64,000 nucleotides of DNA from the NCBI RefSeq assembly GCF_000427425.1, contig NZ_KE386494.1, forward strand, positions 928,524-992,523, given 5' to 3'. Source of the stretch: Caldanaerobius polysaccharolyticus DSM 13641. GTDB taxonomy: Bacteria; Bacillota; Thermoanaerobacteria; Thermoanaerobacterales; Caldanaerobiaceae. A program made the translations under genes and the position numbers. Of the stretch, positions 36,200-52,437 are shown in pieces (position 1 is the stretch's first letter; the number at the start of each line of letters is the position of its first letter). The notes beneath the pieces were generated by a model. The model saw only the letters and a program-made list of their open reading frames with translations. It made no database searches and was not told where the DNA came from.

Positions 36200-36910
36200 T
36201 TATAATAAAATAACAAGCTCATTGCCCATCCTATTTAACTTTAGCACATCGGACTTATGAAAATCACATATACCAAATTCAATATCAAAGGGGAACGCTT
36301 CATAAAGCCTGTTGACTTCATAGTAGTTTACGTAGGGTCTATTATGTGCCTTTAAATAACATTCTAAAAAGAAGTGTTTAAAATGCGTATCTTCGATTTT
36401 AATCGAAGCTGTTCTTTTATACAAGCCAGGTTTATTCTGCCTTTCAAGCACACCCCACTGAGCCATGGAACCCAATATTTTCCCTACGGCATATTTAACC
36501 GTGCTGCGCTCGCCCCATATCTCATAAATCCTGTTTTTCACCATTTTCAGTGTAAAACTGTCCTGAAGGTTTAAAAGCCTGCCAACAACCTTTATAATAT
36601 CCACAAAAATTGGATACGCCAACATAAGCATACACCAATGGAGCATTATTCTTTCATTTCCACCAGCACTTTTATACAAGCTCAACGCCCTATCCCTCAA
36701 CTCCACACAGTCATCGGGCACATTTACCCATGTACGCATCAAGACCTTTAAGACATTATTGGCGTGTTTCTCGCTTTTTAATTCTCCTCTCAGGTATTCT
36801 TTTAGTTCCTGTCTCGACTTGCTTTCATCTCTTTCTACTGAATATATCTCTACTGCTTTGTCAAGCCATTCCAATCTGATAAATCTATTAAAGCCAACCA
36901 TTCTAAGCAC
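36200..36910 (-). CDS. brxA: BREX protein BrxA (DUF1819)
   Basis: 236-residue DUF1819 protein, NusB-like fold. Helical repeats are evident (FIRLEWLDKAVEIYSVERDE; LHWCMLMLAYPIFVDIIKVV). BrxA binds DNA in other BREX systems, but its precise role is unsettled. It ends the type 3 order brxF-brxC-pglXI-brxHII-pglZ-brxA. The GTG at 36910 starts 2 bp after the pglZ stop, with AAGGGAAG inside pglZ serving as ribosome site; ATG at 36901 is an alternative. Confidence 0.83.
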   Translation of the reverse strand: MLRMVGFNRFIRLEWLDKAVEIYSVERDESKSRQELKEYLRGELKSEKHANNVLKVLMRTWVNVPDDCVELRDRALSLYKSAGGNERIMLHWCMLMLAYPIFVDIIKVVGRLLNLQDSFTLKMVKNRIYEIWGERSTVKYAVGKILGSMAQWGVLERQNKPGLYKRTASIKIEDTHFKHFFLECYLKAHNRPYVNYYEVNRLYEAFPFDIEFGICDFHKSDVLKLNRMGNELVILL

Positions 36911-36912
36911 TG

Positions 36913-38841
36913 CTAATCTTCCCTTCTTATATGTATAAACGGCACTATGACTTCCTGTATCGAGGTTCCTCCATGGCTTATCGCCCTTTCCCCTTGAGCA
37001 GAATATGTATACCTGTCATCGCATATTAAATAACTATAATCCTCCGGAAGACCAAAACCTGGCCACTTAAAAGACCTATACCCATCTACTGCTTTCCCAT
37101 AATCATATCCGCTGTCATATACCACCACGCGCTCAGCAGCCTTCTCTACAAAGATCCCTCCCTGAGCTTTCCCCTGCCCTACAGAACTTATATTCCCGTG
37201 GTCTGAGGCAATAAATATCTCGTACCCCTTTGACTGCAATTCTTTGAGGAACCTCTCAAAATAGCCTTTTTTAAGCCATAACCTTATATCCTGGTGCATC
37301 CCCTCTACAGATAGCTGCTGGCCGTGCATAATTCGGTCTATTATGTTCACCACAAGGCCAACGGCCTTTGCCCTGCGATTATCTATTATATCACTCAACC
37401 CTTCTTCGCTAAAGTCAAAAATGTTCCTCATGTAAAACACGCTGTCGGAATTAAGGCCCTGATTGAGCCAGAACCGCTTCCAGTGCACGGCGTCGCTATT
37501 TGTGGAAAACAGCGTATCTTTAAAGTATACGGGCACCTCCCCGGAAAAAAGGGCCTGCCGCGATACTGACGTTATTGTGGGTATCCATGCAAAGGACAGC
37601 GCTGATTCCATCGTCCAGTCATCCACCTGTTTCAAATAGTCCCTTATCACATACCAGTCGTCCAGAGACATGCCATCCATCACTATAAGCGCAAACTTGT
37701 TATAACTCATCTTCCTCATTTTGTAATTGATATGCCATGGTATATGATGCACCATGACAGGAGACCTGACATAGGATAACGAGGTGAGATAGCGATAATT
37801 GTCCAAAAGCCATCGGTTAAAACTATTATCCAGCACCTGACCTGTATAAGCAAATTTCTCTTTATCAAGCTTTAAATCCACATCTACCCTATGGTATATC
37901 AACAATGCCTCAGCCCACATGGAAGCTATATTAAACCAATCCTTGAAGGATTTTACGGATTTTACTGAATCATTGATCTTATCCAGCAAACCATCATAAT
38001 CTTTCCTAAGCCTGTCGATTTCATCGTAAACTATCCCAGCACGAACCCAAACAGGCAATCCATCAATGCCGTCCACTTTTACAGGCTCCAGGTACTTTTC
38101 CGTAAAGAGATTGTCCATGTACGCCTTTATATCCTGATCGCTAAAATCGATTATGGAATTTCTGGTGTTATTTAGAAGATCCTGAACGTATAATTCCCAT
38201 TGCTTTTGAAGGAACTTAAAAAAACTCTCTTTGCTTAAAATCACTTCGTTTATCGGATAACCTTCCAAACTATTTTTGTCGCTTAACACGTCGCACAAAT
38301 AACGCCCAAGTATTTCAGGAAGTTCCATTTGCTTATAATAAAGGCTTATAAACAGCTTTACGAGGGCAGTGAAATTATTTATCAATTCAGGGACAATACC
38401 GTAGACGTATCTCAGTACAAAATTCATCGTGTCCCTATCGCCTAATCGTCTACCGTTATAGGTTTTATACGCCTCAAAAATATTTTTATAGATATCACTG
38501 CCCAGCTCTTTTAATACATCATAACTTAATTTAGGAAATATATCACTTAAAGATATTGATGCGTTATAGCAGGCCTTCTGTATATCATAGGGCAGAATAT
38601 GCCTTTTATCGTATCTTATAATCAACTTTTTATCGGGCATACTGCCGCTATCAATGACACTGCGCACATTTCGTTCGTAATAATACCTGAACATGTCCGG
38701 GTCCTGGTATTCTATTATCTCGTAACCGCTCTTATTTATTTCACCTGCCACGCTTTCTTCTAGCAGGATTCCGTCTCTATCACAAAGCAGTATTACATCA
38801 TACACGTTTAACCCTATTTTCTCAATAACATAATCGATCAT
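36913..38841 (-). CDS. pglZ: BREX phosphatase-like protein PglZ
   Basis: 642-residue PglZ-domain protein of the alkaline phosphatase superfamily. The metal-site start is KFALIVMDGMSLDDWYVIRD near residue 390. A second metal motif is IFIASDHGNISSVGQ near 555, and the end HGGTSIQEVIVPFIHI is the family hallmark. PglZ is a core component of every BREX type. It starts at ATG 38841 with GGAG upstream, 4 bp after the helicase gene, so translation is coupled. The motifs are intact. Confidence 0.93.
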   Translation of the reverse strand: MIDYVIEKIGLNVYDVILLCDRDGILLEESVAGEINKSGYEIIEYQDPDMFRYYYERNVRSVIDSGSMPDKKLIIRYDKRHILPYDIQKACYNASISLSDIFPKLSYDVLKELGSDIYKNIFEAYKTYNGRRLGDRDTMNFVLRYVYGIVPELINNFTALVKLFISLYYKQMELPEILGRYLCDVLSDKNSLEGYPINEVILSKESFFKFLQKQWELYVQDLLNNTRNSIIDFSDQDIKAYMDNLFTEKYLEPVKVDGIDGLPVWVRAGIVYDEIDRLRKDYDGLLDKINDSVKSVKSFKDWFNIASMWAEALLIYHRVDVDLKLDKEKFAYTGQVLDNSFNRWLLDNYRYLTSLSYVRSPVMVHHIPWHINYKMRKMSYNKFALIVMDGMSLDDWYVIRDYLKQVDDWTMESALSFAWIPTITSVSRQALFSGEVPVYFKDTLFSTNSDAVHWKRFWLNQGLNSDSVFYMRNIFDFSEEGLSDIIDNRRAKAVGLVVNIIDRIMHGQQLSVEGMHQDIRLWLKKGYFERFLKELQSKGYEIFIASDHGNISSVGQGKAQGGIFVEKAAERVVVYDSGYDYGKAVDGYRSFKWPGFGLPEDYSYLICDDRYTYSAQGERAISHGGTSIQEVIVPFIHIRRED

Positions 38842-38845
38842 AGCA

Positions 38846-41539
38846 TCACTCCAGATAAACCATATATACGGGATTTAAAGCAGGCATAAGGATAGATGAT
38901 TTTTGCATCTTATTTCGCCATGAAGTCTCTTCTTTTTCAATCTCCTTCAGCCGAAATCGCCTGACGGCTTCAAGGCCAATCCTGCCTGCCGCTTCCTTTC
39001 TCAATTTGAAGGCGTACTCGTACTTTTTCTTCTCTCTATCCAACTCCTCAAGGTAGCGGGTTTTCATCTTGTCAAATACGTTATAGGCCACATCTTTTGC
39101 TCTTTCCCATATCATATGGTACATTTCATCGTCCATTTCCCTGTAGCCGGTAAAATTCAAATTATCTTTTTCATTCACAAACACATCCCACAACAATCTG
39201 GAGGAAGGAATCCTGACCACACCATTATCATTTATAAATAGAGGAAAAAATTGCTTATAATCGGGGCGATTCTCGTTAATGCTCACCTCCCACAGCGTCC
39301 AGTAGCCCTTCTCATTGGAGCTATTATCTATACGCAATGCGGGAACCTTATCTTTCTTTATATACAGCGGCAAATCCCCCAGCATTCTCTTGATAACTTC
39401 ATTACTCAAAGAGAAAAAGTCATCATCCTCCAGCAAAAACAGGTTAACCTCGCCGCCATCCGCCAGGGTTTTGTTTATGTACATCTGCTTAATCCAGTTC
39501 TGAAGCTGAGTACCTGCCAATTTCTTTACGACGCTCTCATCCAAAACCTTATCATCCTTTATAAGCTCTTTAATGCTGCTAATTTTTTCGGTTTTCTCTT
39601 TTATCTTTCTTTCCATCACATCTACCCTGTAGCCTATATCCCTTGGATCTACGATGCTGTTCATATAAAGCTCGGTAAAATCCATCTCCGCCTGAACAGT
39701 GTCCAGTATATCTCCCCATTTATCCACGCCAAACTGCTCGGCTATGGTCTTTAACTTTTCCTCTAGGACTTCCCTTACCCTGAATTCCACCGTATCTGAA
39801 AGCATGAAATTGTAAACCTGGACATCGCTTTTCTGGCCTATCCTGTCCACCCTGCCTATCCGCTGTTCTATTTTCATGGGGTTCCATGGCAGGTCATAAT
39901 TTATAACCACATGGCAAAACTGCAAATTCAAACCCTCTCCACCGGCGTCTGTGGAAACCAGTATATCTGCTTTTTCTTTAAATTCTCTCAGCGCCTTATC
40001 CCTCTCGTCCATGCTCATTGAACCGTTCAATATGACTACACTGAAGCCCTTTTCCTGCAGATATTCTCTCAGAAATTCCTGCGTGGCCACAAACTCGGTA
40101 AATACTATCGCTTTAAAATCCTCTGCCATTTCCGCCTGAAGCCTGTTTATAAGATCTATAAGCACTTCAGCTTTGGCGTCAACATATTGATTCTCAGCCT
40201 GCCTGGCTATTATCAGAAGATCCTGGATTTCCTTCACCTCATTTTTCACATCTCGAATGTCTGCACCAATGAGGTCATCCAGGGCCTCCTGGGCATCTTC
40301 CTCCCAGAAATCCTCATCGTCCATTTCGGGAGCCCCTGTATCACCGCTCTTCAGTATCTCCAACCTCTTTTCCAGATTGACGCGAATCGCCCTGGTACTG
40401 CTGGTCACCAGCCGCTGCATCAACACCATGAGAAAACCTATGTAATACCTTTTTTCTCTTCTCGCCCTGTTGTAACCGTGTGCTACATATTCCGTAACCC
40501 TTTCATACAGCTCTCTCTGCAGGCTGTGCCTTACATCCCAGGATATATCCATCGTCCTGGTTATCCTCTTTTTAAACAGCGGATTGCCGTTTTTATCCAC
40601 TGCTTCCCTTTTTTCCGTCCGTATGATATAAGGTGCTACCTGCTCTTTGACGACCGCATTCTCATCGGGAAAGGCATCTTTATCCAGCAGCCTTATCAGC
40701 CTCAAGAAAGAGCCGGTTTTGCCCTGGTGGGGAGTGGCCGTAAGCAAAAGAAGATAGGGAGAAGCCTCTGACAGCAGCTTCCCCAGCCTGTAGCGGGCTA
40801 CATCGCTGGTAGAGCCGCCCAGCCTGTGGGCTTCGTCTATAATCACCATATCCCACCCCGCTGCCACAAGGTCGGCAATCCTCTCCTTATTGTATTCATC
40901 TACCTGCTCCTTACTCCATCCCTGCCTTCTCTTCAAAGGCTTAACCGAGTCCACGGGGCAGATGACCTGGTCAAACCTGCGCCACACATTGCCGTCACCG
41001 TACAGCCTTCTAATGGCATCAAAGTCCTGAGGCAAAACCACATTAAAGTCTTCATCGAACTTGTGTTTCATCTCCTGGTGCCACTGGGTTATAAGACCCT
41101 TGGGGCAGACTATGAGAATTCGCCTGATAAGCCCTCTCAACTTCAGCTCTTTTATTATCAGACCAGCCTCTATAGTCTTGCCCAGACCCACCTCATCTGC
41201 CAGCAGGTACCTTATCCTGTCACCGGACAAAGCCCTGTTAAGGGCATAGATCTGGTGGGGAAGGGGCATGATGTTGTTGCCAACAGGCGAAAGTATGTTT
41301 GCTGCCATCTCATTTTTTATTCTGGCAGCGGTAACAATGTATTTAAAGGCGTACAGGTTAAAATCATCGTTATCTCCATATCCTATGTAATCGTCAGCGG
41401 TAGAATAAATTTCTTTGTCCACAGGGTCGTAAACATCGTAAGTCCTGTACCCCCAAAGTTCTCTTATCTCGATAATCTTGACGTACCTGCCTCTTTCCCT
41501 ATCGTATACCACATCACCTGTTTTAAACAAATCAACCAC
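38846..41539 (-). CDS. brxHII: BREX type 3 helicase BrxHII (SNF2-like)
   Basis: 897-residue superfamily 2 helicase. Motif I is DEVGLGKTIEAG near residue 115, motif II VIIDEAHRLGG near 235, and motif III LLLTATPHQG. Helicase_C includes LVSTDAGGEGLNLQFCHVVI and EQRIGRVDRIGQ. The long C-terminal part is helical (KKKYEYAFKLRKEAAGRIGL). The GTG at 41539 overlaps the end of pglXI by 8 bp. Type 3 BREX uses this helicase; the substrate is probably invading or replicating DNA. Confidence 0.93.
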   Translation of the reverse strand: MVDLFKTGDVVYDRERGRYVKIIEIRELWGYRTYDVYDPVDKEIYSTADDYIGYGDNDDFNLYAFKYIVTAARIKNEMAANILSPVGNNIMPLPHQIYALNRALSGDRIRYLLADEVGLGKTIEAGLIIKELKLRGLIRRILIVCPKGLITQWHQEMKHKFDEDFNVVLPQDFDAIRRLYGDGNVWRRFDQVICPVDSVKPLKRRQGWSKEQVDEYNKERIADLVAAGWDMVIIDEAHRLGGSTSDVARYRLGKLLSEASPYLLLLTATPHQGKTGSFLRLIRLLDKDAFPDENAVVKEQVAPYIIRTEKREAVDKNGNPLFKKRITRTMDISWDVRHSLQRELYERVTEYVAHGYNRARREKRYYIGFLMVLMQRLVTSSTRAIRVNLEKRLEILKSGDTGAPEMDDEDFWEEDAQEALDDLIGADIRDVKNEVKEIQDLLIIARQAENQYVDAKAEVLIDLINRLQAEMAEDFKAIVFTEFVATQEFLREYLQEKGFSVVILNGSMSMDERDKALREFKEKADILVSTDAGGEGLNLQFCHVVINYDLPWNPMKIEQRIGRVDRIGQKSDVQVYNFMLSDTVEFRVREVLEEKLKTIAEQFGVDKWGDILDTVQAEMDFTELYMNSIVDPRDIGYRVDVMERKIKEKTEKISSIKELIKDDKVLDESVVKKLAGTQLQNWIKQMYINKTLADGGEVNLFLLEDDDFFSLSNEVIKRMLGDLPLYIKKDKVPALRIDNSSNEKGYWTLWEVSINENRPDYKQFFPLFINDNGVVRIPSSRLLWDVFVNEKDNLNFTGYREMDDEMYHMIWERAKDVAYNVFDKMKTRYLEELDREKKKYEYAFKLRKEAAGRIGLEAVRRFRLKEIEKEETSWRNKMQKSSILMPALNPVYMVYLE

Positions 41540-44105
41540 CCGTCTTCGTCACAGCATTGTCGTAGTACATGAGAAGGCTCTGATCCTCCTGCAATACGCT
41601 CTCAGGAAGCCTCTCGCCTACTTTAACAATAGTCTCATAGTCCTTATTTCTCCAGCAGTTCTTAAATCCAGCCCTTATGGCCTCCGTCCTGAAAACTTTC
41701 AACCTGCCGCTGCTATTTACGTACTCCTCAAATTCTTTAAGCAGCCTTTTCTCCCGCAGCTTCTCCAGATCAGACTGCTTGCTGACATCAGGCACATACC
41801 ATCGCCCATTTTCATCCTGCAAAAAGTTCTCTTCCAAAAGCTCATACAGCTCCAATGTCTTCTCATGCTTTGACCAGCGCAACACCTGCAGGAATTCAGG
41901 CTGTATCTCCGCATATGTCTTTGGGCTGTCCTGCAGTTTGCTCATGAGCCACATTATGGCCGATTTTTCGTCAGAAATCATGTAAGATATTTGACCGCTT
42001 AGTTCCATCCTCATCCTTCTGGTATCGTATACACTGACCTGCTCCGGCAGAAAATACATGCCATCCCTTTCAGGAAACCTCTGGCGCAATCCGGCGTAAA
42101 AATCCGCTGCTCCCATGGGTATGGTAGCACCTTTTTGAATGTGAAATGCTATCATGCTGTCATACAGAGCATAATTCAACCTCTCAGGTACTACCTCCAG
42201 CCTACCACCTGTCTCCACAACCACCGGCAGGTTCTTGAGGTGCTGCCTGACAAAATCCCATACCCCTTCTTCCGTCCCTGCCTCCTTCAAAAACTTTCTT
42301 ACAAAGGACTCCCTGGGCTTGTACGCCGATATGATGAGGTCCTGTTTAACAGCCGTATGTGTCGTCACCTGCTTAAAGGTCCCTTGCTTTTTATCGAGGC
42401 TCTTTACGCTGGCAATTACAAATCCCGCTTTCAGAATGGCCTCCTGGATGGCGTTCCACACGGCGTTTTTAGAATTGTGGAACTCCACCGTCATCCACCT
42501 GCCTGGCTTAAGTATGCGGTACATCTCAGCAAAACACCTGGTCATCAATTCCTGATACTCGTGAAGGCCCTTATGCTGTGTCTTATTTATAATCGCCTCT
42601 GTCTTATTGTTTGTAAAAACTCTAAGCCATGCCTCCCATATAAAATTGAGCTCGCTGTACATAAGGTTGTCCCCAAAAGGCGGATCTGTAAATATATAGT
42701 CGATGGAGTTGGAATGTATATTTTTAAGATCTGACGCTGATTGTGTAAAAAAGTTAGTGCAAGTTATAGTAGCATTAACCACCCATTTCTTAAGAAATAA
42801 CAATATAAGATTTAATCTATTTTCTACATGATGAAAAACTGAATTTTCTTTTATAAGAGACGGAATATACAATGTTCCTGTTACTTTACCTCCACCACCT
42901 CTATTAAATAAATATCTATTCATAATAGAGGTTCTTTCATGTAACGAATTCAATAGCCATATGAATTTAAATCTAATATAATTAAAATATATCCTGCTTC
43001 CTTTTTCATACAATGCGCTCAAAACCCACAAATTCCTCTTTGTATAAAAATGGTGCACATGGGTTATGCCATCTTTATCATTTCTTCTGGATTCATCGCC
43101 TTCCGGCATCCTATCCGTAGGATACCAGTAGGGTATATCCATTTCCTCAATTTTATTTATAAGGTCCAGATCGAATTTATCGGGCTTTTTCTCGTACCTC
43201 TTTTTACCTACAGAGTAATTTATCAACACAGGCACCTGTTTTACCTGTTTTATGGTCTGGTTTATAGCCTTATCATACACAGTCCTCCAGGCTTTTTCCA
43301 GGTTTCTCTTGCTCACTTTAGCGCCACAGTGAGGGCAGTTGAACTCATCCATGACGCTCCCTGTATCTTTATCCACCGCAGCGTCCCAGAAGACAATCTC
43401 CTCGGTGCAGTAAGGGCACACAAACACATCGGACCAGACGGTATAATTAATCCTCCCTTTTATCACATTGCCTGTAATATCGTATTGAGGCTGGCCGTCT
43501 ACGGTGTGAATGGTCTCGTACATCCACCCGCACTCCTCTTCTACCTCTTTAAGTATCCTACTGGCCTCTTTTTCAAATGCCTCCACATCCACAGGGGTAT
43601 TGTAGTTGTAGGCTATAAACGTGGCAGCAGGTGAGAGATCACCCAGTATGGCCCTTCGGGCTCCCCACTCTATCTTCTTGCCCTCTTTTCTGGCCTCGTT
43701 CTCTACCTTTAGCTTGAACTCGGGATCGGGATTTCCGCACATCTGGGCAGCCACACCTGTCATACCTGTACCGCAGAAACCGTCAAATACTATATCACCA
43801 GGCTTGGTGTAGTGGAGTATATACCTCATGATTGCCTTATGGGGCACCTTGGTGTGATAGGAATGGGCGTTGTATATGGGATCATTCTTGCCTTCCGAGA
43901 CATCGGCAGCATATGGCTCGCAGTTATAGTCATCATTTTCTTCATCATAAGGCGTGCCGTATTTTTCAATAAAGTCCTTGATGTATGGGTTAGGGCAGGC
44001 TGTGTAGTAAGGGGGATCTGACAGCTCGATTATAGCCTCATCATCCCCCACAGGAAATCCATCTATATTTCTTACAGTGTCGAGAATTTCTTTTGTTAGT
44101 TTCAT
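41532..44105 (-). CDS. pglXI: BREX type 3 DNA methyltransferase PglXI (DUF1156)
   Basis: 857-residue methyltransferase. The start PPYYTACPNPYIKDFIEKYG is followed by the SAM motif IVFDGFCGTGMTGVAAQ near residue 105. A zinc-ribbon pair, CPYCTEE and CPHCGAK, lies near 235 and 260. The catalytic motif is FTDPPFGDN near 480, a DPPF version of DPPY typical of amino-methyltransferases. It marks host DNA so that BREX spares it. The start ATG at 44105 has AAAGGAGG upstream. Confidence 0.92.
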   Translation of the reverse strand: MKLTKEILDTVRNIDGFPVGDDEAIIELSDPPYYTACPNPYIKDFIEKYGTPYDEENDDYNCEPYAADVSEGKNDPIYNAHSYHTKVPHKAIMRYILHYTKPGDIVFDGFCGTGMTGVAAQMCGNPDPEFKLKVENEARKEGKKIEWGARRAILGDLSPAATFIAYNYNTPVDVEAFEKEASRILKEVEEECGWMYETIHTVDGQPQYDITGNVIKGRINYTVWSDVFVCPYCTEEIVFWDAAVDKDTGSVMDEFNCPHCGAKVSKRNLEKAWRTVYDKAINQTIKQVKQVPVLINYSVGKKRYEKKPDKFDLDLINKIEEMDIPYWYPTDRMPEGDESRRNDKDGITHVHHFYTKRNLWVLSALYEKGSRIYFNYIRFKFIWLLNSLHERTSIMNRYLFNRGGGGKVTGTLYIPSLIKENSVFHHVENRLNLILLFLKKWVVNATITCTNFFTQSASDLKNIHSNSIDYIFTDPPFGDNLMYSELNFIWEAWLRVFTNNKTEAIINKTQHKGLHEYQELMTRCFAEMYRILKPGRWMTVEFHNSKNAVWNAIQEAILKAGFVIASVKSLDKKQGTFKQVTTHTAVKQDLIISAYKPRESFVRKFLKEAGTEEGVWDFVRQHLKNLPVVVETGGRLEVVPERLNYALYDSMIAFHIQKGATIPMGAADFYAGLRQRFPERDGMYFLPEQVSVYDTRRMRMELSGQISYMISDEKSAIMWLMSKLQDSPKTYAEIQPEFLQVLRWSKHEKTLELYELLEENFLQDENGRWYVPDVSKQSDLEKLREKRLLKEFEEYVNSSGRLKVFRTEAIRAGFKNCWRNKDYETIVKVGERLPESVLQEDQSLLMYYDNAVTKTGG

Positions 44106-44118
44106 TGTAACCTCCTTT

Positions 44119-44196
44119 TCATAAATGTTTTTTAAATTCTTCCAATGATATCCCTGCTTGCTCGAGAATGCTTTTTAACGTTCCTTTTAATCCCAT
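44119..44196 (-). pseudogene. C-terminal tail of a HicA toxin, re-started
   Basis: 25-residue frame MGLKGTLKSILEQAGISLEE then FKKHL. It matches the usual end of HicA toxins (KGTLKSILEQAG-S-EEF), but the catalytic His and the double-stranded-RNA-binding fold are missing. Its ATG overlaps the hicB stop (TAATG). It is likely the residue of a deleted hicA and has no toxin activity. Confidence 0.7.
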
Positions 44197-44405
44197 TATA
44201 TCGCTACCTCCAAAGTGGTTATAAATAAGGGCTTTTCTTCTATCTCAGGTTTTTCATTTTCATAATACAGCTCTAAAGCCTCACGCAAATTATCCAGGGC
44301 TTCTTCTATGGTTTTGCCCTGAGATGCTACGCTGTTTTCGATACACTTTGCCACATACCAGTTTTCTTCTTTTTGGATTGCCACCGTAAATTTGACTTTC
44401 AACAT
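44196..44405 (-). CDS. hicB: HicB-family antitoxin
   Basis: 69-residue partial RNase-H-fold antitoxin: KFTVAIQKEENWYVAKCIEN, then SQGKTIEEALDNLREALELY, the HicB hallmark. No DNA-binding C-terminal domain is present, so it is the short form. Start ATG at 44405, behind AAAGG; earlier GTG/ATG codons are nearer the site. A TATAAT lies in the 112-base gap upstream and may also drive pglXI. Its partner hicA survives only as a tail. Confidence 0.85.
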   Translation of the reverse strand: MLKVKFTVAIQKEENWYVAKCIENSVASQGKTIEEALDNLREALELYYENEKPEIEEKPLFITTLEVAI

Positions 44406-44486
44406 CATCACCCTTTCAATTCATTAACAAATTATAATTATACTACAGAGCACAAAACATTCTCATCATCAAAAAGCATCGCGCGG

Positions 44487-44510
44487 AAGCCCCTGGCTTT
44501 AGCCATGGGG
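44487..44510. repeat. Right-end hairpin of the IscB element
   Basis: Imperfect hairpin CCCCTGGCT/AGCCATGGGG with a bulged T and a 2-nt loop. It is identical to 46152-46175 and lies 14 bases past the iscB stop. Confidence 0.85.
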
Positions 44511-44523
44511 AGGAGCGTATGCT

Positions 44524-45879
44524 TTAATAAGCTACTTTCTCTTTTTCATACTGCCATCCATCCACGTACTGCAATAACCTTACGTACCTATATGAAATTC
44601 CCTGACATATACGATTCCCTTTGCTGTCTTTGATATCAAAATACCCGCTGGCGCGTACTGCCACTCTACCTCTCCATGTGCCTTTATATTTCCCTGAAAG
44701 AACTTCAGCTTCCACTATATCGCCCGTTTGAAATCCGAAGTGTCTCTTTTTCCTCTGCCTGTGACTTATCGGAAATCCGTACTTATCTGTATTGCACATT
44801 TTACGGTTGCCTCTGCCCACTGCCGTCCATATCTCTGTATACTTCGTCTTTATCTTGATTGTTTTTGGCGTGCTGGCACCCACGCAGCAAGCATCAAAAT
44901 AGTGGGCCTTGGGAAATCCGTGCTCTATCCTCTGCTTCTTCGTCCTTGCACCCGTACCGCATTCTACCGGCAATCCTGTACGCTTCAGTCTCTCGTACAG
45001 TGTCCATCTCGTTGCATTCATCATTGCTGCATCCTTCAGCGGTTTCTTCAGGTTCGCAAGCACCTTCAGCAGGTTCTCCGCTCGCACCCGATCAATTTTT
45101 CGTTTCGATTTTTGCAGTTCCTCAAGCCATTCTTCGGGTTGCTTATTCCCTTTGTCTTTGTTGCACCTTTCGCACGAAATCGTGAGATTGGAAACTCTGT
45201 TCGTGCCTTTCGGTCCGTGTTTTGGGTTTCTGGGTACCACATGCTCTATCTGCAAGGGCACGTTCTCGGTACCGCAGTATGCACATTTCCTGCCGTATTT
45301 CTCTAACAGGTACTCTCTTATTTCGTATCCGTACAGTTCGCCCTGCTGGTACTCAATTCCGCTGATTTCAGGGTTCTGCATGAGCTGGGTATCGAATTTG
45401 ACATGCTCCGTGCTTATCGATGTGATGGGCAGCCATTTCATCAGTTTCTCTGCTGCCCTTACCGTCTCTTCCACTCTCGCTTCCAATGACGGCGGCAGCC
45501 AGCCTTCTTCCCTCCTGCGGTTATCGAATCTCGGCTTTCTGTAACGCGTCTTGTGGTTCCTCCTTCCACGTCTTAATACCCTTCTGCTGTCAAGTCTGTC
45601 TTTTATCCCCTGCTTGTGATGAATTTCTCCCATTATTATTGCTGCTGATTTTTCAGCACTCTCTTCTCTCAACAAGGAAAAACCTGTTGTTTTGCTTCCC
45701 GGATCGAATTTCAACCTTAACGGTTGGAAGTTACTCTCTTCTGCCGTTCTATCTTTCAGGCGGATAACAAAGGGCATTAATCTATGCACCACCGCTCTGC
45801 CACTTTGCAGCAGTTTTCTTGCGCGTTTCTCCGTGCACGGCATGAGCGGTTTTTTCTTTTTATCCAGGACGAAAACCAT
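44524..45879 (-). CDS. iscB: RNA-guided nuclease IscB
   Basis: 451-residue IscB. The PLMP domain is at the N-terminus (KKPLMPCTEKRARKLLQSGR). RuvC-I has LKFDPGSKTTGFSL (Asp), then the Arg-rich bridge helix (RRVLRRGRRNHKTRYRKPRF), RuvC-II ISTEHVKFD (Glu), HNH with zinc (CAYCGTENVPLQIEHVVPRN, TISCERCNKDKG) and RuvC-III PKAHYFDACCVG (Asp). All catalytic residues are present, so the nuclease should be active. ATG at 45879 was chosen since GGAGGA lies upstream and it directly precedes PLMP; a frame to 45957 is part of the omega-RNA. It is an ancestor-type relative of Cas9. Confidence 0.95.
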   Translation of the reverse strand: MVFVLDKKKKPLMPCTEKRARKLLQSGRAVVHRLMPFVIRLKDRTAEESNFQPLRLKFDPGSKTTGFSLLREESAEKSAAIIMGEIHHKQGIKDRLDSRRVLRRGRRNHKTRYRKPRFDNRRREEGWLPPSLEARVEETVRAAEKLMKWLPITSISTEHVKFDTQLMQNPEISGIEYQQGELYGYEIREYLLEKYGRKCAYCGTENVPLQIEHVVPRNPKHGPKGTNRVSNLTISCERCNKDKGNKQPEEWLEELQKSKRKIDRVRAENLLKVLANLKKPLKDAAMMNATRWTLYERLKRTGLPVECGTGARTKKQRIEHGFPKAHYFDACCVGASTPKTIKIKTKYTEIWTAVGRGNRKMCNTDKYGFPISHRQRKKRHFGFQTGDIVEAEVLSGKYKGTWRGRVAVRASGYFDIKDSKGNRICQGISYRYVRLLQYVDGWQYEKEKVAY

Positions 45880-45884
45880 TCTTC

Positions 45885-46176
45885 CTCCTCTCCTTTCGGA
45901 GCCCCTTACGGGGCTGGTGACGCCGCAGATTGCCGATCTGCAGTCTTCCCTCGCCAATGTTGGAAGGGGTTTAGCTCACAGCGCACCGCTCGCTGCACCC
46001 CTGCTCGCTTTTAACGCTGTGCCACAGGGCAGAAGACTGGGAATGCATCTTAAGGTGTGCGCCCTTCCAACGTAGTGCCTTCATCGTTCCGGCTGAACTC
46101 CAGCACTCAGGCTGGTCATAGGTCTGGCTGAGCTGCAGGGGCTTGTCTCACAAGCCCCTGGCTTTAGCCATGGGGT
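45885..46176 (-). ncRNA. Predicted omega-RNA of IscB
   Basis: Just under 300 structured bases directly before iscB. It begins with the end hairpin CCCCATGGCTAAAGCCAGGG, has a second stem GGGGCTTGT/ACAAGCCCC (46140-46160) and ends with GCCCCGTAAGGGGC beside the iscB ribosome site. In IscB systems the guide is the sequence flanking this 5' end, here the last bases of brxC (about 46176-46195, reading ATAATAAGGTCATAGA). Confidence 0.8.
46152..46175. repeat. Left-end hairpin of the IscB element
   Basis: Same 24 bases and orientation as 44487-44510. It abuts the brxC stop (TAG, 46179-46177), and forms the 5' stem of the omega-RNA. Confidence 0.85.
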
Positions 46177-49100
46177 CTATGACCTTATTATTATCCTCAC
46201 CTTACTCACATCTTTGCCAAATACCAGGCTGTCGATATACCTTTCAAATTTCTTCTTGATCTCATCCACAGTACACGGCCCATCGCCGGCGATATACGTC
46301 TTTATATCAGAAACAGATACTTCCACCTTTTCTAGACCCTTCATGAGGTCATTTACGGCCGAAATAAACACATTGTCTATCCTATCAGGCAATTTGCGGG
46401 TAGACAAAAACTGTTGAATGGACTTTCGCTGATCTATACTCAAATATTTTATATTCTCTGCCAGCTGCAGCATGGGGTCCTCGATGTTATTCAGAAGCGT
46501 TTTAGTCCAACTCTCGTAAACCTCTTCGATCTTATCTTCTACATAGTCAAGTACACCATATACAGGCTGTTCGCTATCTGAAAAATTATAACCGCAGTGA
46601 GGACACATAGAATTGTCCTCCATATCTGATCGTTTCAAGCTGTAACACGTCTTCAATGCAGCCAGCCTATCTTGTACTTCTTTAAGTTCAAAAACGGGCA
46701 GTATGTTGTTTTCGTCCTCTATAGTCGCAAGTTTATTTAGGTTATTCAGTATGTCACTGCGCATTATCTTTTTCTTGCGCCCATCTTCGTTTATGTCCAA
46801 CCTGTATTTTCTGTGCATATCCATATACATTTTTACATATTCCTCTTTGAGATTTCTTAACTCTGCTACAACCTGTTTTAACGCGCTATCATCCCCTTTT
46901 GTATTATTCAGCAGCTCTTCTACCTTTGCTTTAGATTCATTCATTTTATTAACCATCTCAGTTGCCCAATCTTTGTCTTTTAACAACAATTCAGCAGAAG
47001 AAAGATAACTGGTATAAGGCCCTACTTTCTCTTTGATACTTTTTAACCTTTCTACTTCTTTCATAACTTTTATTCCAGCATTTTGCCTTGATATATCCTC
47101 TTCCCTGTATCTAAAATTCTTTAATTTACCAGCTGTATTGTAAACCCTTAAGGAATCCAGAAAGTTACCTAAATTATTTAGCACCTCTTTGTACTCTTTC
47201 TTTTTGTCTGCATCAATCACAGGTTTCCCCCATATAACTGCATCGCTAACAGCAAATTGCTTTACTACGTTTAAATCTTCTATTATCTCATCTATCCTAA
47301 TAAGCATATTTCTAATAGCTTCGTCCCTGGAGTTGGGATTGGTTATCTGGCCTGGCGGCAACCCGAGAAATTCAAAAAGCTTTTTGAGTTCCTTTACAGG
47401 CATATCTTTGGGCCTCTCGATGTGCTTAAACTTCACCAGATCGGCAGGATTCATGTTCGCCAACTGTACCAACATAGTAGCGTCGTATTTTGTATTGCTG
47501 CCTTCCAATGTCAGTGTAATATCACCGGTATAGACCAGCGAACAGAGGACCAACACTACCCATTCAGGCTCCAGCTTGAATTTTTTGTCTAAGGAATCCC
47601 CATACACATCCTCCATTATATCGTCATAAGTCAATACCTTCCCTGGTGGCAATTTATCCAACAAATCCAGATAATACTGAGCATACATAGAATCAGATGG
47701 TGATATAATGTCCCCATCCAGTAATTCCAGAGATGCCAGTATTTTGGCGCCGTGTTCAGTTTTTTTCCCTGCCAGATAATTAATTGCCGCTTTAAACATA
47801 TCCTCTAAATTGGTTTCTGTAATAGATACGGCAAAGGAAGGATAATCAGGATATTTATCACTAAAATACGACGATAAACACACTGATGCGGTCATATCCA
47901 CATAATCCTTAAGGGTCTTATCTCCTGTCATTCTGCTTTTTATCCATTGAAATATGCTTCTGCTTTCCCCTCTATATCTGACCATGAAGCAATCATTCAT
48001 ATTGTCCCTTATCCATTTCAACGCATTTTTCATATACTCATTGGCTTTAGTCAAGTATATTTGTTTTTCTTCGCTTGACGCTCCTGTATGCAATGACATA
48101 GCTGCAGCGTATTTCTTTATATTATCATCGATTATTTCATCCCTGTTGACAAATTCAAAGAAAACCTCGTCACGCTGTGCTTCATATTCATCTATATTAA
48201 AATATTTATCCCCATAGGGTTTAAGGAAATATATATAGAAATCCCTGGGAGGCTGGGCAGTAGTCCTCTCATTAGGTGAACCCATAAAAAGATAGCCATA
48301 TCTTGCAACCTTTTTCTCTTCCCACATAAGTTCATACTGCCATATCCTATGGTCTCTAACGTATTGAGGAGAATTCCAGTCCAGTGCCTTTATAAGGATA
48401 TCGTAATAGCCATTGTTAAAGGCATCATCATCCAGCATCTCGGCTTTGCTCTGTATTTTGACATTATAATCTATGCCCACTTTTTCCATATCCAGATAAT
48501 ACTGCTGATTTTGTGAGTTATACGTTATGAATTGACCGTTGGATGTCTTGATTATTTCCTTCATTATAGTTTGTATAGTGGACACAAGAAAATCCTCTTC
48601 CAGCTCAGGGGATGGTATGTAAATACAAAGATCATCTTTCATATTTTCTACGGTTATACCTATGGGCTCATGAATATCTCCTGTAGTAAGCCTGTGAACG
48701 CTTAACGCGTATATGATCCTCAAGGCAGCGGGTTTATAAATGGGTTTTGTAAAGGAATGCTGGATTATATCTTCCAATACTCCGCTCTTATCTGCCACTG
48801 TTTTTATATTGGGCTCTGTCCTCATCGCCCTGTCTTCTTTGATAAATTTCCAGTAAGCATCATAGGATATTAGGCCAGGTTGATCTTCAGGCACATCTTT
48901 ATCCAGCATCTCTCTCATCAACTGAGTTACTACCTTCAAAACCTCCCGTTTTTCCACCATATATATTTTCTCAAAGACCTCAATAAAAGCCGGATGTATA
49001 GGATAAAGGTCTACGTATTCCTCTAATCTTGAAATCATATTTTTATAAAGGGAGCTGAATTTTTCTAAATGATGCCTTATCCACGCCTTTTGCCTGTCAT

Positions 49101-49887
49101 CCTTTTTCAATAGACGCTGGGACACTACATAAGATATATCCTCCCGCCTTATTATAATCTGCTCATACCTGTCCTTTACTTTGAGTATGGTTTGGGCTAC
49201 ATGCTGGAAGTTGGGGTTATCAAAAAGCGATTCCTGAACACCAGACATAAACCTTATGCGGGAAGATTTGCACACCTCTCCCATTTCCCTCAAAAACGTG
49301 AGGTCCTGATAAAGCTCCAGCTCCTTCCTCGACTTCAGATAGTCTAAAAGCTCATCGACTACAATAAGGTAGCCTTTATCAGGGTATTTCTCCTGAAAGA
49401 CCTCCATCATCTCCATCAATGATTCTTTGTTGTTGGTTATCTGATCCATTGGTGGAAAGTGATATTCTATTCCAATTCTAGATAAATTCTTCTCAATCTC
49501 CTTCAGCAGCATATCCCTTAGAGGCATGGTGGTAGAACCTATGTCAAACCTTAAAATCTTAAATCTGCCAGCGATTTTCTCTGCAGTTTTCCTGAACGCT
49601 AAGTTATCTACGTATTCCAGCAGATCTTTGTTCTCGGCAATAGCTGATATAACCGACATGAGATGGGACTTACCTGTTCCGTAGTTGCCCACTATAAAGA
49701 TACCTTTATTGTCGATGGTCTCATCAAACTGCAGTTGTGGGATACACACGTTTATCAAGCTGTCAGCCATACTGTCTGACATCACATAGGTTTTTACAAG
49801 CCTTACAGCCTCTTCTTCCTTATCGGCATCTTTTAATTTTACCACCGTTTCAATAGGATCGTATTGAACTAAATCACCGTATTTCAT
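46177..49887 (-). CDS. brxC: BREX ATPase BrxC
   Basis: 1236-residue ATPase, the largest BREX component. Walker A is GIFIVGNYGTGKSHLMSVIS near residue 65; a Walker B-like LIVVDELLDYL follows near 175. The C-terminal part has coiled coils (KEVERLKSIKEKVGPYTSYL) and a zinc site (MCPHCGYNF). It matches type 3 BrxC in size. ATG at 49887 overlaps brxF by 4 bp and has AGGAGGG upstream. The IscB element lies immediately past its stop, so its last codons may be the guide source. BrxC probably interacts with BrxF, PglXI and PglZ. Confidence 0.93.
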   Translation of the reverse strand: MKYGDLVQYDPIETVVKLKDADKEEEAVRLVKTYVMSDSMADSLINVCIPQLQFDETIDNKGIFIVGNYGTGKSHLMSVISAIAENKDLLEYVDNLAFRKTAEKIAGRFKILRFDIGSTTMPLRDMLLKEIEKNLSRIGIEYHFPPMDQITNNKESLMEMMEVFQEKYPDKGYLIVVDELLDYLKSRKELELYQDLTFLREMGEVCKSSRIRFMSGVQESLFDNPNFQHVAQTILKVKDRYEQIIIRREDISYVVSQRLLKKDDRQKAWIRHHLEKFSSLYKNMISRLEEYVDLYPIHPAFIEVFEKIYMVEKREVLKVVTQLMREMLDKDVPEDQPGLISYDAYWKFIKEDRAMRTEPNIKTVADKSGVLEDIIQHSFTKPIYKPAALRIIYALSVHRLTTGDIHEPIGITVENMKDDLCIYIPSPELEEDFLVSTIQTIMKEIIKTSNGQFITYNSQNQQYYLDMEKVGIDYNVKIQSKAEMLDDDAFNNGYYDILIKALDWNSPQYVRDHRIWQYELMWEEKKVARYGYLFMGSPNERTTAQPPRDFYIYFLKPYGDKYFNIDEYEAQRDEVFFEFVNRDEIIDDNIKKYAAAMSLHTGASSEEKQIYLTKANEYMKNALKWIRDNMNDCFMVRYRGESRSIFQWIKSRMTGDKTLKDYVDMTASVCLSSYFSDKYPDYPSFAVSITETNLEDMFKAAINYLAGKKTEHGAKILASLELLDGDIISPSDSMYAQYYLDLLDKLPPGKVLTYDDIMEDVYGDSLDKKFKLEPEWVVLVLCSLVYTGDITLTLEGSNTKYDATMLVQLANMNPADLVKFKHIERPKDMPVKELKKLFEFLGLPPGQITNPNSRDEAIRNMLIRIDEIIEDLNVVKQFAVSDAVIWGKPVIDADKKKEYKEVLNNLGNFLDSLRVYNTAGKLKNFRYREEDISRQNAGIKVMKEVERLKSIKEKVGPYTSYLSSAELLLKDKDWATEMVNKMNESKAKVEELLNNTKGDDSALKQVVAELRNLKEEYVKMYMDMHRKYRLDINEDGRKKKIMRSDILNNLNKLATIEDENNILPVFELKEVQDRLAALKTCYSLKRSDMEDNSMCPHCGYNFSDSEQPVYGVLDYVEDKIEEVYESWTKTLLNNIEDPMLQLAENIKYLSIDQRKSIQQFLSTRKLPDRIDNVFISAVNDLMKGLEKVEVSVSDIKTYIAGDGPCTVDEIKKKFERYIDSLVFGKDVSKVRIIIRS

Positions 49888-50369
49888 CCCGTCTTCCCTC
49901 CTAATTTTATAACCATGCATTCAATCTCATTCTGACTATATTTCCTGAACTCAAGATGACCCGGTCGGGCATAAGTAAGATATCCATCATCCAGATCGCC
50001 GCCCCACGCCACAATCATCCCTCTGTACTTGCTCATGTTCTTAAATAACCGCAAAGGCTCCAGCTTCAGATGAGGTCCAAACAATATCACTATATTATCA
50101 ATTGCGAGAATTTCTGTCCTCTTCCCCGCTAAAATTTCATCAATAAAATCTTCTACATAATAGCAGCGCTCGTCAACAGGTATATTTATCAATTTCTCTG
50201 ATAGCTCTAAATTAAGGTTTATATAGTCAAAAGCGTATTTTAAAGATATGCTCTTAATAAAATCGGTCTTGCCTGAGCCCATAGGGCCCACTACCAGTAT
50301 CAATTTATAATATCGATATTTTAACTTTTTTAATGCCTCATCTATATCTTCTTTTCTGATTAACTCCAT
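49884..50369 (-). CDS. brxF: BREX type 3 small ATPase BrxF
   Basis: 161-residue P-loop protein. Walker A is VVGPMGSGKTDFIKSI near residue 28, and a Walker B-like EILAIDNIVILFG near 97. It is found only in type 3 BREX, always before brxC. ATG at 50369 is preferred to 50399 because AAAGGG precedes it. It overlaps brxC by ATGA. A weak TATAAT (minus strand) lies about 40 bases upstream, which may start the BREX transcript. Confidence 0.85.
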   Translation of the reverse strand: MELIRKEDIDEALKKLKYRYYKLILVVGPMGSGKTDFIKSISLKYAFDYINLNLELSEKLINIPVDERCYYVEDFIDEILAGKRTEILAIDNIVILFGPHLKLEPLRLFKNMSKYRGMIVAWGGDLDDGYLTYARPGHLEFRKYSQNEIECMVIKLGGKTG

Positions 50370-50438
50370 AATGTTTCCCTTTCTCACACAACGTAACATT
50401 ATAATTCTACATAAACCTGCAAAAATCCTCCATTAAAA

Positions 50439-50487: not shown

Positions 50488-52437
50488 CTAATTCGCATAT
50501 GGTCTCCATTTAACATAAAAACCATTAATATTGCCAAACATTAGTATCCATTCTTCTATATCCCACATATTTGTATCTGGATTATATTTAATCTTATAGT
50601 AACTCTCAGGATTAGAAGGATAAAAACTATAGCTGAAATAAGCATACAACCCTCCTACTATTTCTTTCCCGGGATACCTCTTTTGAGCGTCATTGTATAT
50701 CTTCTGGATATAATTTTCAACATACTTTTCATTGGCCCTATATTCCTCTAAACTTATATTCGGCTTAGATAATAAACTTTCCAGATATTTGAGGTAATTA
50801 TCATCGCCTATTATAGAAATCAAAATATAAATCGTCCCACTGTCTTCAGTCACATAATAGTCATTAAAAGGCACAAATTGGCCATTTAGGATATATCCTG
50901 GATAGTTTTTCTCCAGATATGCTGCGTACTCCTCATACGTCATCTGCGTCAAATTGTTTACTTCTGCCAGTGTTTTAATTGAGTTGCCACCAAGCATAGG
51001 CTTTATCTCATTAATAGGGATAGCAAAAGCTAGGTTTCCTGTATCATAACCACTGTATATAACGCCGATTACCAATCCCTGCATATCAAACAGAGGGCTG
51101 CCTGAGCTCCCATGAGCCACAGGGGCGGTAGTCTGAAAATCTTTGAAACCCTTCCTCGTCGTCTCTCTTATGGCGCTTATATTTCCCTTTGATACAGTAT
51201 TATCCAGACCTTCCGGTCTTCCAATGACCACGACGTCATCGCCCACTTCCACCTTATCCGAATCGCCCAGTGCAAGTACAGGTAAATCTCTGGCATTTTT
51301 CAGCTTTAACACCGCTATATCCTGATTTTCACTATAACTGATTATACCTTCTACCTCATATTGCCTCCCATCACCTAATACTGCCTTTGCAGAGCAAGCA
51401 TCTTTAATAACGTGGTAATTAGTTACTATTTTTCCGTCCTGGGACACAATAAATCCACTACCCTGTGCCAGCGGTTTTTCATCGACACTAAATGTCATTA
51501 TTGTTACAACTCCATTACTCTTTTTGGCAATATCCTTAACACTTAATTGACTACTGCTAGCTTTTACCGTCAATGTCAAAATGACCTTCCTGTCATAGCC
51601 TGCAACATCACCATAATACAAACTGCTACCAGGTTTACTTGTATCAACTTTAGAGGGATTCCAGGACACACTCACCGATTGTACAGTGCCATCACTCATA
51701 GTAGCTTCCAGAGTCAACGGTAAACTATAACTTTCCCCCTGGTTTACCGTTATACTTATATCCGGAATATACTTAATTGTCTTCTGGACATTATCAGCGG
51801 CTTTTAAAATGCCCTTTTTAATTAACAGTCTATACATCAAAACAATAGCCTGCTCCCTTGTGGTATAAGCTTTTGGACTTATTTTATCATAAGACGTGCC
51901 TTTCATTATTCCTTCTTTATAAACATACGCAACGGCTGCCCTGGCCCAATCAGATATCTCATTTTTATCGGAAAAATTCAAGCTTTCCGATGCGCTGTAA
52001 TCGTCCTGAGGGTAAACCAGCTTTAAAAACCTGACCAGCATTACAGCCATCTGCTCTCTTGTAATTGGATCATAAGAGCCAAATACATCCTCTTTATAAC
52101 CCTTGATGACGCCTATTTGATAAGCCTTTTGAATGTAATCTCTATATAATGCATCGCATCCATCTTTAAACTTATAAGTATAATTTACCGGTAGCTGTAT
52201 CGGTCCTTCCATCCTCTCATAGGCTTTTACCAGAAGCATAGCAAATTCCTGTCTAGTCACATTTCTCTGATAGTCACTTAAAAATGCTGGCTCTGCCAGA
52301 TTATCTTTTTGAAAAGCATCCACAGCCTCGACGGCCCAGTCATTTGGGTTACTTCCGGCAAAAGAACGTAGCGGGAACATCGTCACAGATAAAGTAATAA
52401 TTAAAAACATTGATATTATTTTGCAATATCTACCCAT
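50488..52437 (-). CDS. SLH-anchored HtrA-like serine protease
   Basis: 649-residue surface protein. A signal peptide (FLIITLSVTMFPLRSFAG) is followed by three SLH repeats (residues 30-200; DWAVEAVDAFQ, DYIQKAYQIGVIKGY, ISDWARAAVAYVYKEGIM), an Ig-like domain (near 225-295), and a trypsin-like domain: His in TNYHVIKD, Asp in ENQDIAVLKL, Ser in APVAHGSSGSPLFD, a variant of GNSGGP. SLH repeats bind secondary wall polymer, so the protease sits on the S-layer. The C-terminal 160 residues are not recognised. Confidence 0.9.
   Translation of the reverse strand: MGRYCKIISMFLIITLSVTMFPLRSFAGSNPNDWAVEAVDAFQKDNLAEPAFLSDYQRNVTRQEFAMLLVKAYERMEGPIQLPVNYTYKFKDGCDALYRDYIQKAYQIGVIKGYKEDVFGSYDPITREQMAVMLVRFLKLVYPQDDYSASESLNFSDKNEISDWARAAVAYVYKEGIMKGTSYDKISPKAYTTREQAIVLMYRLLIKKGILKAADNVQKTIKYIPDISITVNQGESYSLPLTLEATMSDGTVQSVSVSWNPSKVDTSKPGSSLYYGDVAGYDRKVILTLTVKASSSQLSVKDIAKKSNGVVTIMTFSVDEKPLAQGSGFIVSQDGKIVTNYHVIKDACSAKAVLGDGRQYEVEGIISYSENQDIAVLKLKNARDLPVLALGDSDKVEVGDDVVVIGRPEGLDNTVSKGNISAIRETTRKGFKDFQTTAPVAHGSSGSPLFDMQGLVIGVIYSGYDTGNLAFAIPINEIKPMLGGNSIKTLAEVNNLTQMTYEEYAAYLEKNYPGYILNGQFVPFNDYYVTEDSGTIYILISIIGDDNYLKYLESLLSKPNISLEEYRANEKYVENYIQKIYNDAQKRYPGKEIVGGLYAYFSYSFYPSNPESYYKIKYNPDTNMWDIEEWILMFGNINGFYVKWRPYAN

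Follow-up and report, generated by a model that had tools for sequence, protein, structure and literature searches.

Toxin-antitoxin modules of the hicBA type that belong to class 2 are described, in the relevant part of PMC10865869, as encoding a small HicB (63-103 codons) first and without a recognizable DNA-binding domain. For BREX loci, the relevant part of a recent survey (PMC12839542) counts HEPN, PIN and Schlafen nucleases among the auxiliary genes, and the main text of that survey contains no mention of 'hic'. Our literature searches returned no title on HicB in association with BREX and no paper on degenerate toxins beside intact antitoxins. Here we describe a short hicB and the remnant of a hicA gene that lie inside a BREX operon of Caldanaerobius polysaccharolyticus DSM 13641, in a 64,000-nucleotide stretch of DNA (the window; contig NZ_KE386494.1).

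According to PADLOC and NCBIfam models, brxF, brxC, pglXI, a helicase gene, pglZ and brxA occur together in the window, as expected of BREX type 3. All are on the minus strand, in the order brxF-brxC-IscB element-hicB-hicA'-pglXI-helicase-pglZ-brxA:

49884..50399, minus strand, brxF (NCBIfam BREX_3_BrxF, 160 bits)
46177..49920, minus strand, brxC, whose last codons now read ...RIIIRS-stop, with the stop inside the IscB element
44466..46183, minus strand, IscB element separating the final sense codon of brxC from its stop (ends accurate to 1-2 bases)
44466..44524, minus strand, right end of the IscB element, a hairpin resembling a terminator, with UUUUU behind it (44469-44528 folded)
44406..44465, minus strand, 60-nt hicB leader with the former brxC stop TGA (44465-44463), TATAAT (44442-44437) and the ribosome site AAAGGG
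44196..44405, minus strand, short-form hicB, an intact ORF with its start at ATG 44405 (69 aa) or at the alternative GTG 44411 (71 aa)
44119..44196, minus strand, hicA' remnant of 25 codons, made up of the native start and the C-terminal 22 residues after an in-frame internal deletion
41532..44105, minus strand, pglXI (brxXI) methyltransferase gene (PADLOC PglXI, 1430 bits) with the ribosome site AAGGAGG
38846..41539, minus strand, BREX helicase gene (best PADLOC model labelled BrxHI|BrxHII)
36913..38841, minus strand, pglZ of BREX type 3 (NCBIfam BREX_PglZ_3, 788 bits)
36200..36910, minus strand, brxA (PADLOC BrxA, 304.7 bits)

A first-pass annotation of the window had described a full short-form HicB and a pglXI gene behind a strong ribosome site. 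Both descriptions hold: the hicB ORF is intact from 44196 to 44405 or 44411 (69-71 aa), and pglXI starts at 44105 behind AAGGAGG. Directly upstream of brxF, positions 50488-52437 encode a protein of 649 aa. A DegP/HtrA-type protease domain spans its residues about 320-481, and the PADLOC RT-Protease_XI models cover the protein only over residues about 266-481.

The identity of HicB is based mainly on its partner gene, given that HicA comes after hicB in the relatives, which are 56-87% identical to the window HicB and occur in 19 other genomes (37 genomes of the class searched). Two of the genes behind hicB in these relatives were compared with PF07927 and matched it at E 6e-21 and 6e-22, and one of the two also matched the solved 70-aa chain 1whz at 2.7e-12. 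HicB itself scores above the Pfam cut-off for DUF7387 (6.8e-9) and below the cut-offs for UPF0150 (0.0023), HicB_lk_antitox and others, and its ORF ends where the short HicB proteins of the relatives end. Matches to solved structures are weak, both for the single sequence (2yzt at 0.0067 over residues 5-55; the HicB of 6g1c at 0.78) and for a profile of 13 sequences (2yzt at 0.016; the HicB of 9svk at 0.049). The chain in 2yzt is TTHA1756, a 67-aa protein and itself a putative HicB, whose likeness to the window HicB is a weak match, although the best one obtained. A single-sequence model (pLDDT 78) gives the order E-E-H-E, where a partial RNase H fold would be expected to give beta-beta-beta-alpha-beta. 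A fold search with this model returned no match at E <=0.001 (best E 0.65); a HicB of Burkholderia pseudomallei came 15th (E 2.5).

The toxin gene has been reduced from within. The overlap of the hicB stop and the hicA start is ATATAATGGGAT in the seven closest relatives (L002-L008) and is identical in the window. After MG, the remnant continues with L and then with KGTLKSILEQAGISLEEFKKHL, the last 22 residues of a 73-aa HicA. Compared with the 73-aa homologues, 48 internal codons (residues 3-50) are gone in frame, and with them the GSH stretch, which we take to carry the catalytic histidine of HicA; the position of the deletion junction is approximate. The retained end agrees with the HicA C-terminus at 22/22 residues in five loci (L003-L007) and at 21/22 in L002 and L008, a match that excludes chance. 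The remnant had first been read as a 25-codon HicA tail with its own ATG. The tail stands, at 22/22 residues, and the ATG is corrected to the native start of hicA, from which the tail is separated by the loss of 48 internal codons. We reject the idea that the ATG arose by chance before a tail, since intact relatives have the same ATG after the hicB stop. An alignment of the window ATG to an internal hicA ATG was also discarded, as the native start beside the hicB stop fits without mismatch. With most of the protein lost, we infer that the HicA toxin is dead.

Compared with the seven relatives, the retained hicA tail shows 5-6 synonymous differences and 0-1 nonsynonymous ones, with no residue change against five of the seven. 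For hicB, 31-32 synonymous and 10-13 nonsynonymous differences over 67 codons separate the window from five close relatives, and 37.5 synonymous and 26.5 nonsynonymous differences separate it from L009. Both hicB and the hicA tail look constrained for nearly all of their divergence, and the deletion in hicA is therefore probably recent. The 25-residue product could instead be a functional mini-protein that, for example, binds HicB, or its translation could couple ribosomes to pglXI. Such a role would suit the in-frame deletion, the kept native start, the tail free of nonsynonymous change against most relatives, and the hicA' stop only 13 nt from the pglXI start. However, a recent deletion accounts for the same facts, and the other 11 broken hicA genes beside intact hicB carry frameshifts or stops, are truncated, or have almost disappeared; none of them shows an in-frame internal deletion. 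We regard a function for the mini-protein or for its translation as highly improbable.

The state of both genes was sorted by script in all 26 loci of the window's hicB family listed in the class (37 genomes, one per species). Both genes are intact in 12 loci, hicB is intact and hicA broken in another 12 (window included), and both are broken in 2; an intact hicA beside a broken hicB occurs in 0 of the 26. The 12 intact hicA genes include that of L009, which has ATA instead of the usual start. A search of the same 37 genomes with HicA as the query recovered the same 12 intact hicA genes, together with weaker matches of other subfamilies (E 1e-9 to 3e-7). Across the relatives, the lesions in hicA vary in kind and include a 101-nt deletion, a 40-nt deletion, several frameshifts and stops, although some of the frameshifts, seen in assembled sequences only, could be sequencing errors. 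Given that hicA is the broken gene in 12/12 one-sided loci, and that the lesions differ, the family appears to decay toxin first. We consider ordinary toxin-first decay of a hicBA pair to be the probable explanation of the window locus as well, with HicB left as a passive orphan antitoxin and not as a regulator. The family offers a clean worked example of loss order within one toxin-antitoxin family, in which the toxin went first in 12/12 one-sided cases.

A different role had been proposed for HicB in the first-pass annotation, in which it was kept as a transcription regulator, perhaps of its own promoter, which would now also drive pglXI after the insertion of the IscB element. The ends of the element, at about 46183 and 44466, come from comparison with a sister genome in which pglXI was not found and which carries a complete copy (96% identical) as well as two partial ends; two right-end copies there set the right boundary. 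When the flanks of the element are joined, brxC is restored as ...RIIIR followed by TGA and then by the hicB leader, and relatives end in ...RIIIK and a stop. The RNA of the right end folds into a long hairpin followed by UUUUU (-23.8 kcal/mol, z -3.3), and a consensus terminator scan did not list this end. Based on the hairpin and the UUUUU, we suspect that transcription from brxC and iscB may end there, which could leave pglXI beyond the reach of brxC transcripts. The sole minus-strand promoter-like site in 44050-46250 is ATGAGA-18-TATAAT (44466-44437), just beyond the element. That the element brought this site is ruled out, as the two right-end copies limit the overlap to <=1 base; a longer match to one IscB copy alone (to 44462) would put five bases of the first hexamer inside the element.

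A promoter in the hicB leader serving pglXI is plausible from the sequence, and this part of the proposal gains from the terminator-like right end and from the TATAAT in the 60-nt leader. Against it, promoter-like sites in 44050-46250 occur at the level of chance (2 found on both strands, 2.6 expected), and TATAAT arises in 9% of dinucleotide shuffles of the leader. Control by HicB is another matter. HicB transcription regulators of the HTH or RHH type have a C-terminal DNA-binding domain, whereas the window HicB matches no DNA-binding family of Pfam or NCBIfam at cut-off and has no recognizable C-terminal HTH or RHH domain, as described for its class (relevant part of PMC10865869). The one regulator name listed is NCBIfam PmtR, at 18.7 bits where the cut-off is 200, and a Pfam PHD_like antitoxin family (E 0.07) is likewise far under threshold. 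Moreover, retention of hicB needs no new job, because 12 of the 26 related loci combine an intact hicB with a broken hicA. The terminator-like end, the TATAAT and the strong pglXI ribosome site would fit a promoter under HicB control for pglXI and the genes behind it, but the missing DNA-binding domain, the chance level of promoter-like sites and the lack of any HicA or HicB relative at the same place in related operons (best 80 of 176 pglXI loci) make regulation by HicB scarcely credible. A tempting regulatory story for HicB in a BREX operon is thereby removed as unsupported.

From the perspective of the BREX operon, the hicBA pair has the look of a private insertion. The brxC-pglXI spacer measures 13-15 nt in six pglXI loci of the same order. 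The set excludes a seventh genome of the order (G011), in which pglXI is in pieces. One of the six (L103) gave no brxC match and shows only the last brxC bases before pglXI within 1.5 kb, with the rest missing or replaced upstream, and in another genome of the order (L108-L110) pglXI is matched in three pieces with internal stop codons and is probably broken. We also compared the best 80 of 176 other pglXI loci, of which 63 gave a spacer length; among the remaining 17, 16 have no brxC upstream in the stretch and one has brxC on the other side. The 63 spacers vary widely: 23 are <=40 bp, 16 are 41-499 bp and 24 are at least 500 bp. Apart from the window's own genes, HicA and HicB profiles found nothing at E <=1 in these best 80 of 176 loci (63 showing the junction) or in ten stretches of the order, where profiles built mostly from the window's subfamily could miss distant HicA or HicB. 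Likewise, 46 scanned ORFs (of 106 from junctions or from upstream of pglXI) included no HicA or HicB among the families listed (25 of 38), and complete match tables covered 21 of the 46. The first reading had asked whether related BREX loci have hicAB in the same place; with no relative found by the profiles in the best 80 of 176 loci, hicAB as a regular neighbor of BREX type 3 is ruled out. No such pair was found in these related loci, and elsewhere the junction takes other cargo.

This brxC-pglXI junction of type 3 BREX itself looks like a cargo slot. At L014 it holds a HepT-like/nucleotidyltransferase pair, with ORFs 92-96% identical in L015 and L016, and at L048 it holds an HTH protein. 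Other junction cargo includes an AAA protein, along with proteins of 500-650 aa that resemble one another as a family; loaded junctions include L014-L016, L023, L024, L048, L053, L071, L076, L078, L082, L085 and L089. The Schlafen AlbA_2 family is matched by 7 of the 46 scanned junction or upstream ORFs (loci not itemized), and the stretch upstream of pglXI encodes PIN and NYN proteins in L077 and L069, with brxC outside the view in both. Such cargo raises the possibility that the BREX operon acquired hicBA as a toxin-antitoxin guard, since disarmed; other junction modules may have been recruited likewise. The frequency of junctions of at least 500 bp (24 of the 63, the L014 pair included) and the Schlafen matches would agree with recruitment, but among the examined pglXI loci (best 80 of 176) HicA and HicB relatives occur only in the window, and in L002-L008 the ORF after hicA is, by eye, a different gene that is not part of BREX. 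We therefore find recruitment as a guard rather improbable.

Under toxin-first decay, the following order of events is suggested. A small hicBA module would have entered the short brxC-pglXI spacer of a type 3 BREX operon, as its absence from the relatives examined suggests. Later, as comparison with the 73-aa homologues shows, hicA lost its 48 codons through the in-frame internal deletion, presumably killing the toxin. HicB would have stayed as a passive orphan antitoxin, possibly still expressed, since an antitoxin can safely be lost only after its toxin. Separately, as the joined flanks show, the IscB element inserted at the brxC stop, and the stretch before hicB may now supply a putative promoter for hicB, hicA' and the genes from pglXI onward.

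The window hicB also seems to be without a partner elsewhere in the genome (about 96% complete). A PF07927 search found only two other HicA genes, both on contig 3 (L111 and L112), each followed by a 156-aa long HicB; in the one copy that was scanned, HicB belongs to PF15919 and HicA to PF07927. These two HicA genes are of another subfamily, in hicAB pairs of another class, and no partner for the window hicB was found among them. That the window HicB serves them is ruled out, as each is already paired with a long HicB. The ORF that precedes the hicAB pair in L112 resembles, by eye only, an amidase of the cell wall, a likeness in keeping with a prophage remnant.

An antitoxin in this position could have been kept against HicA arriving on phages or plasmids, or against HicA of related modules, and orphan antitoxins are discussed as possible anti-addiction modules in the relevant part of PMC7192599. 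Consistent with this, HicB is intact and strongly constrained relative to its relatives, and the solo hicB genes of two relatives are constrained too. These two genomes (L125 and L126) apparently share one loss of hicA, and over 64 codons their hicB genes show 15 synonymous differences and 3 nonsynonymous ones. Within the genus-level group that includes them, hicB pN/pS is 0.088 in 9 loci with a broken hicA and 0.055 in 6 loci with an intact one, both far below 1, with pairs that are non-independent. Unless hicA was lost recently in these genomes, passive decay alone should have left less constraint than such counts and low ratios suggest, and solo hicB genes may be under selection. On the other hand, the constraint on the window hicB may predate the loss of hicA, and the genome yielded no intact HicA of this subfamily. 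For the window, we judge retention for protection unlikely. An extension of the idea is very doubtful: small HicB proteins without a DNA-binding domain would be positively retained after the death of HicA as protectors against incoming HicA, and the window copy would have come under the BREX operon, coupling the production of this protection to that of phage exclusion. Should solo HicB turn out to be under selection, this family would make it tractable to study how an antitoxin outlives its toxin.

Passive decay thus remains our preferred reading, and it can be set against the described systems. Like the class 2 hicBA modules (relevant part of PMC10865869), the window pair has hicB first, a small HicB (69-71 aa) that matches no DNA-binding family, and a hicB stop that overlaps the hicA start; it differs in that 25 codons of hicA remain, 48 of 73 having been lost, which leaves no working module. 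Like the auxiliary nuclease and toxin-like genes of BREX loci (relevant part of PMC12839542), it is a toxin-antitoxin-type insert inside a core operon, but its toxin appears dead. It also resembles the orphan, or solitary, antitoxins, solitary hicB included (relevant parts of PMC10865869 and PMC7192599), which are antitoxin genes without a working adjacent toxin. The window hicB is intact by sequence, with no working partner beside it and no cognate toxin found elsewhere in the genome, and is most likely an orphan antitoxin of this already known kind, distinguished by the remnant of its toxin and by its place inside a BREX operon.
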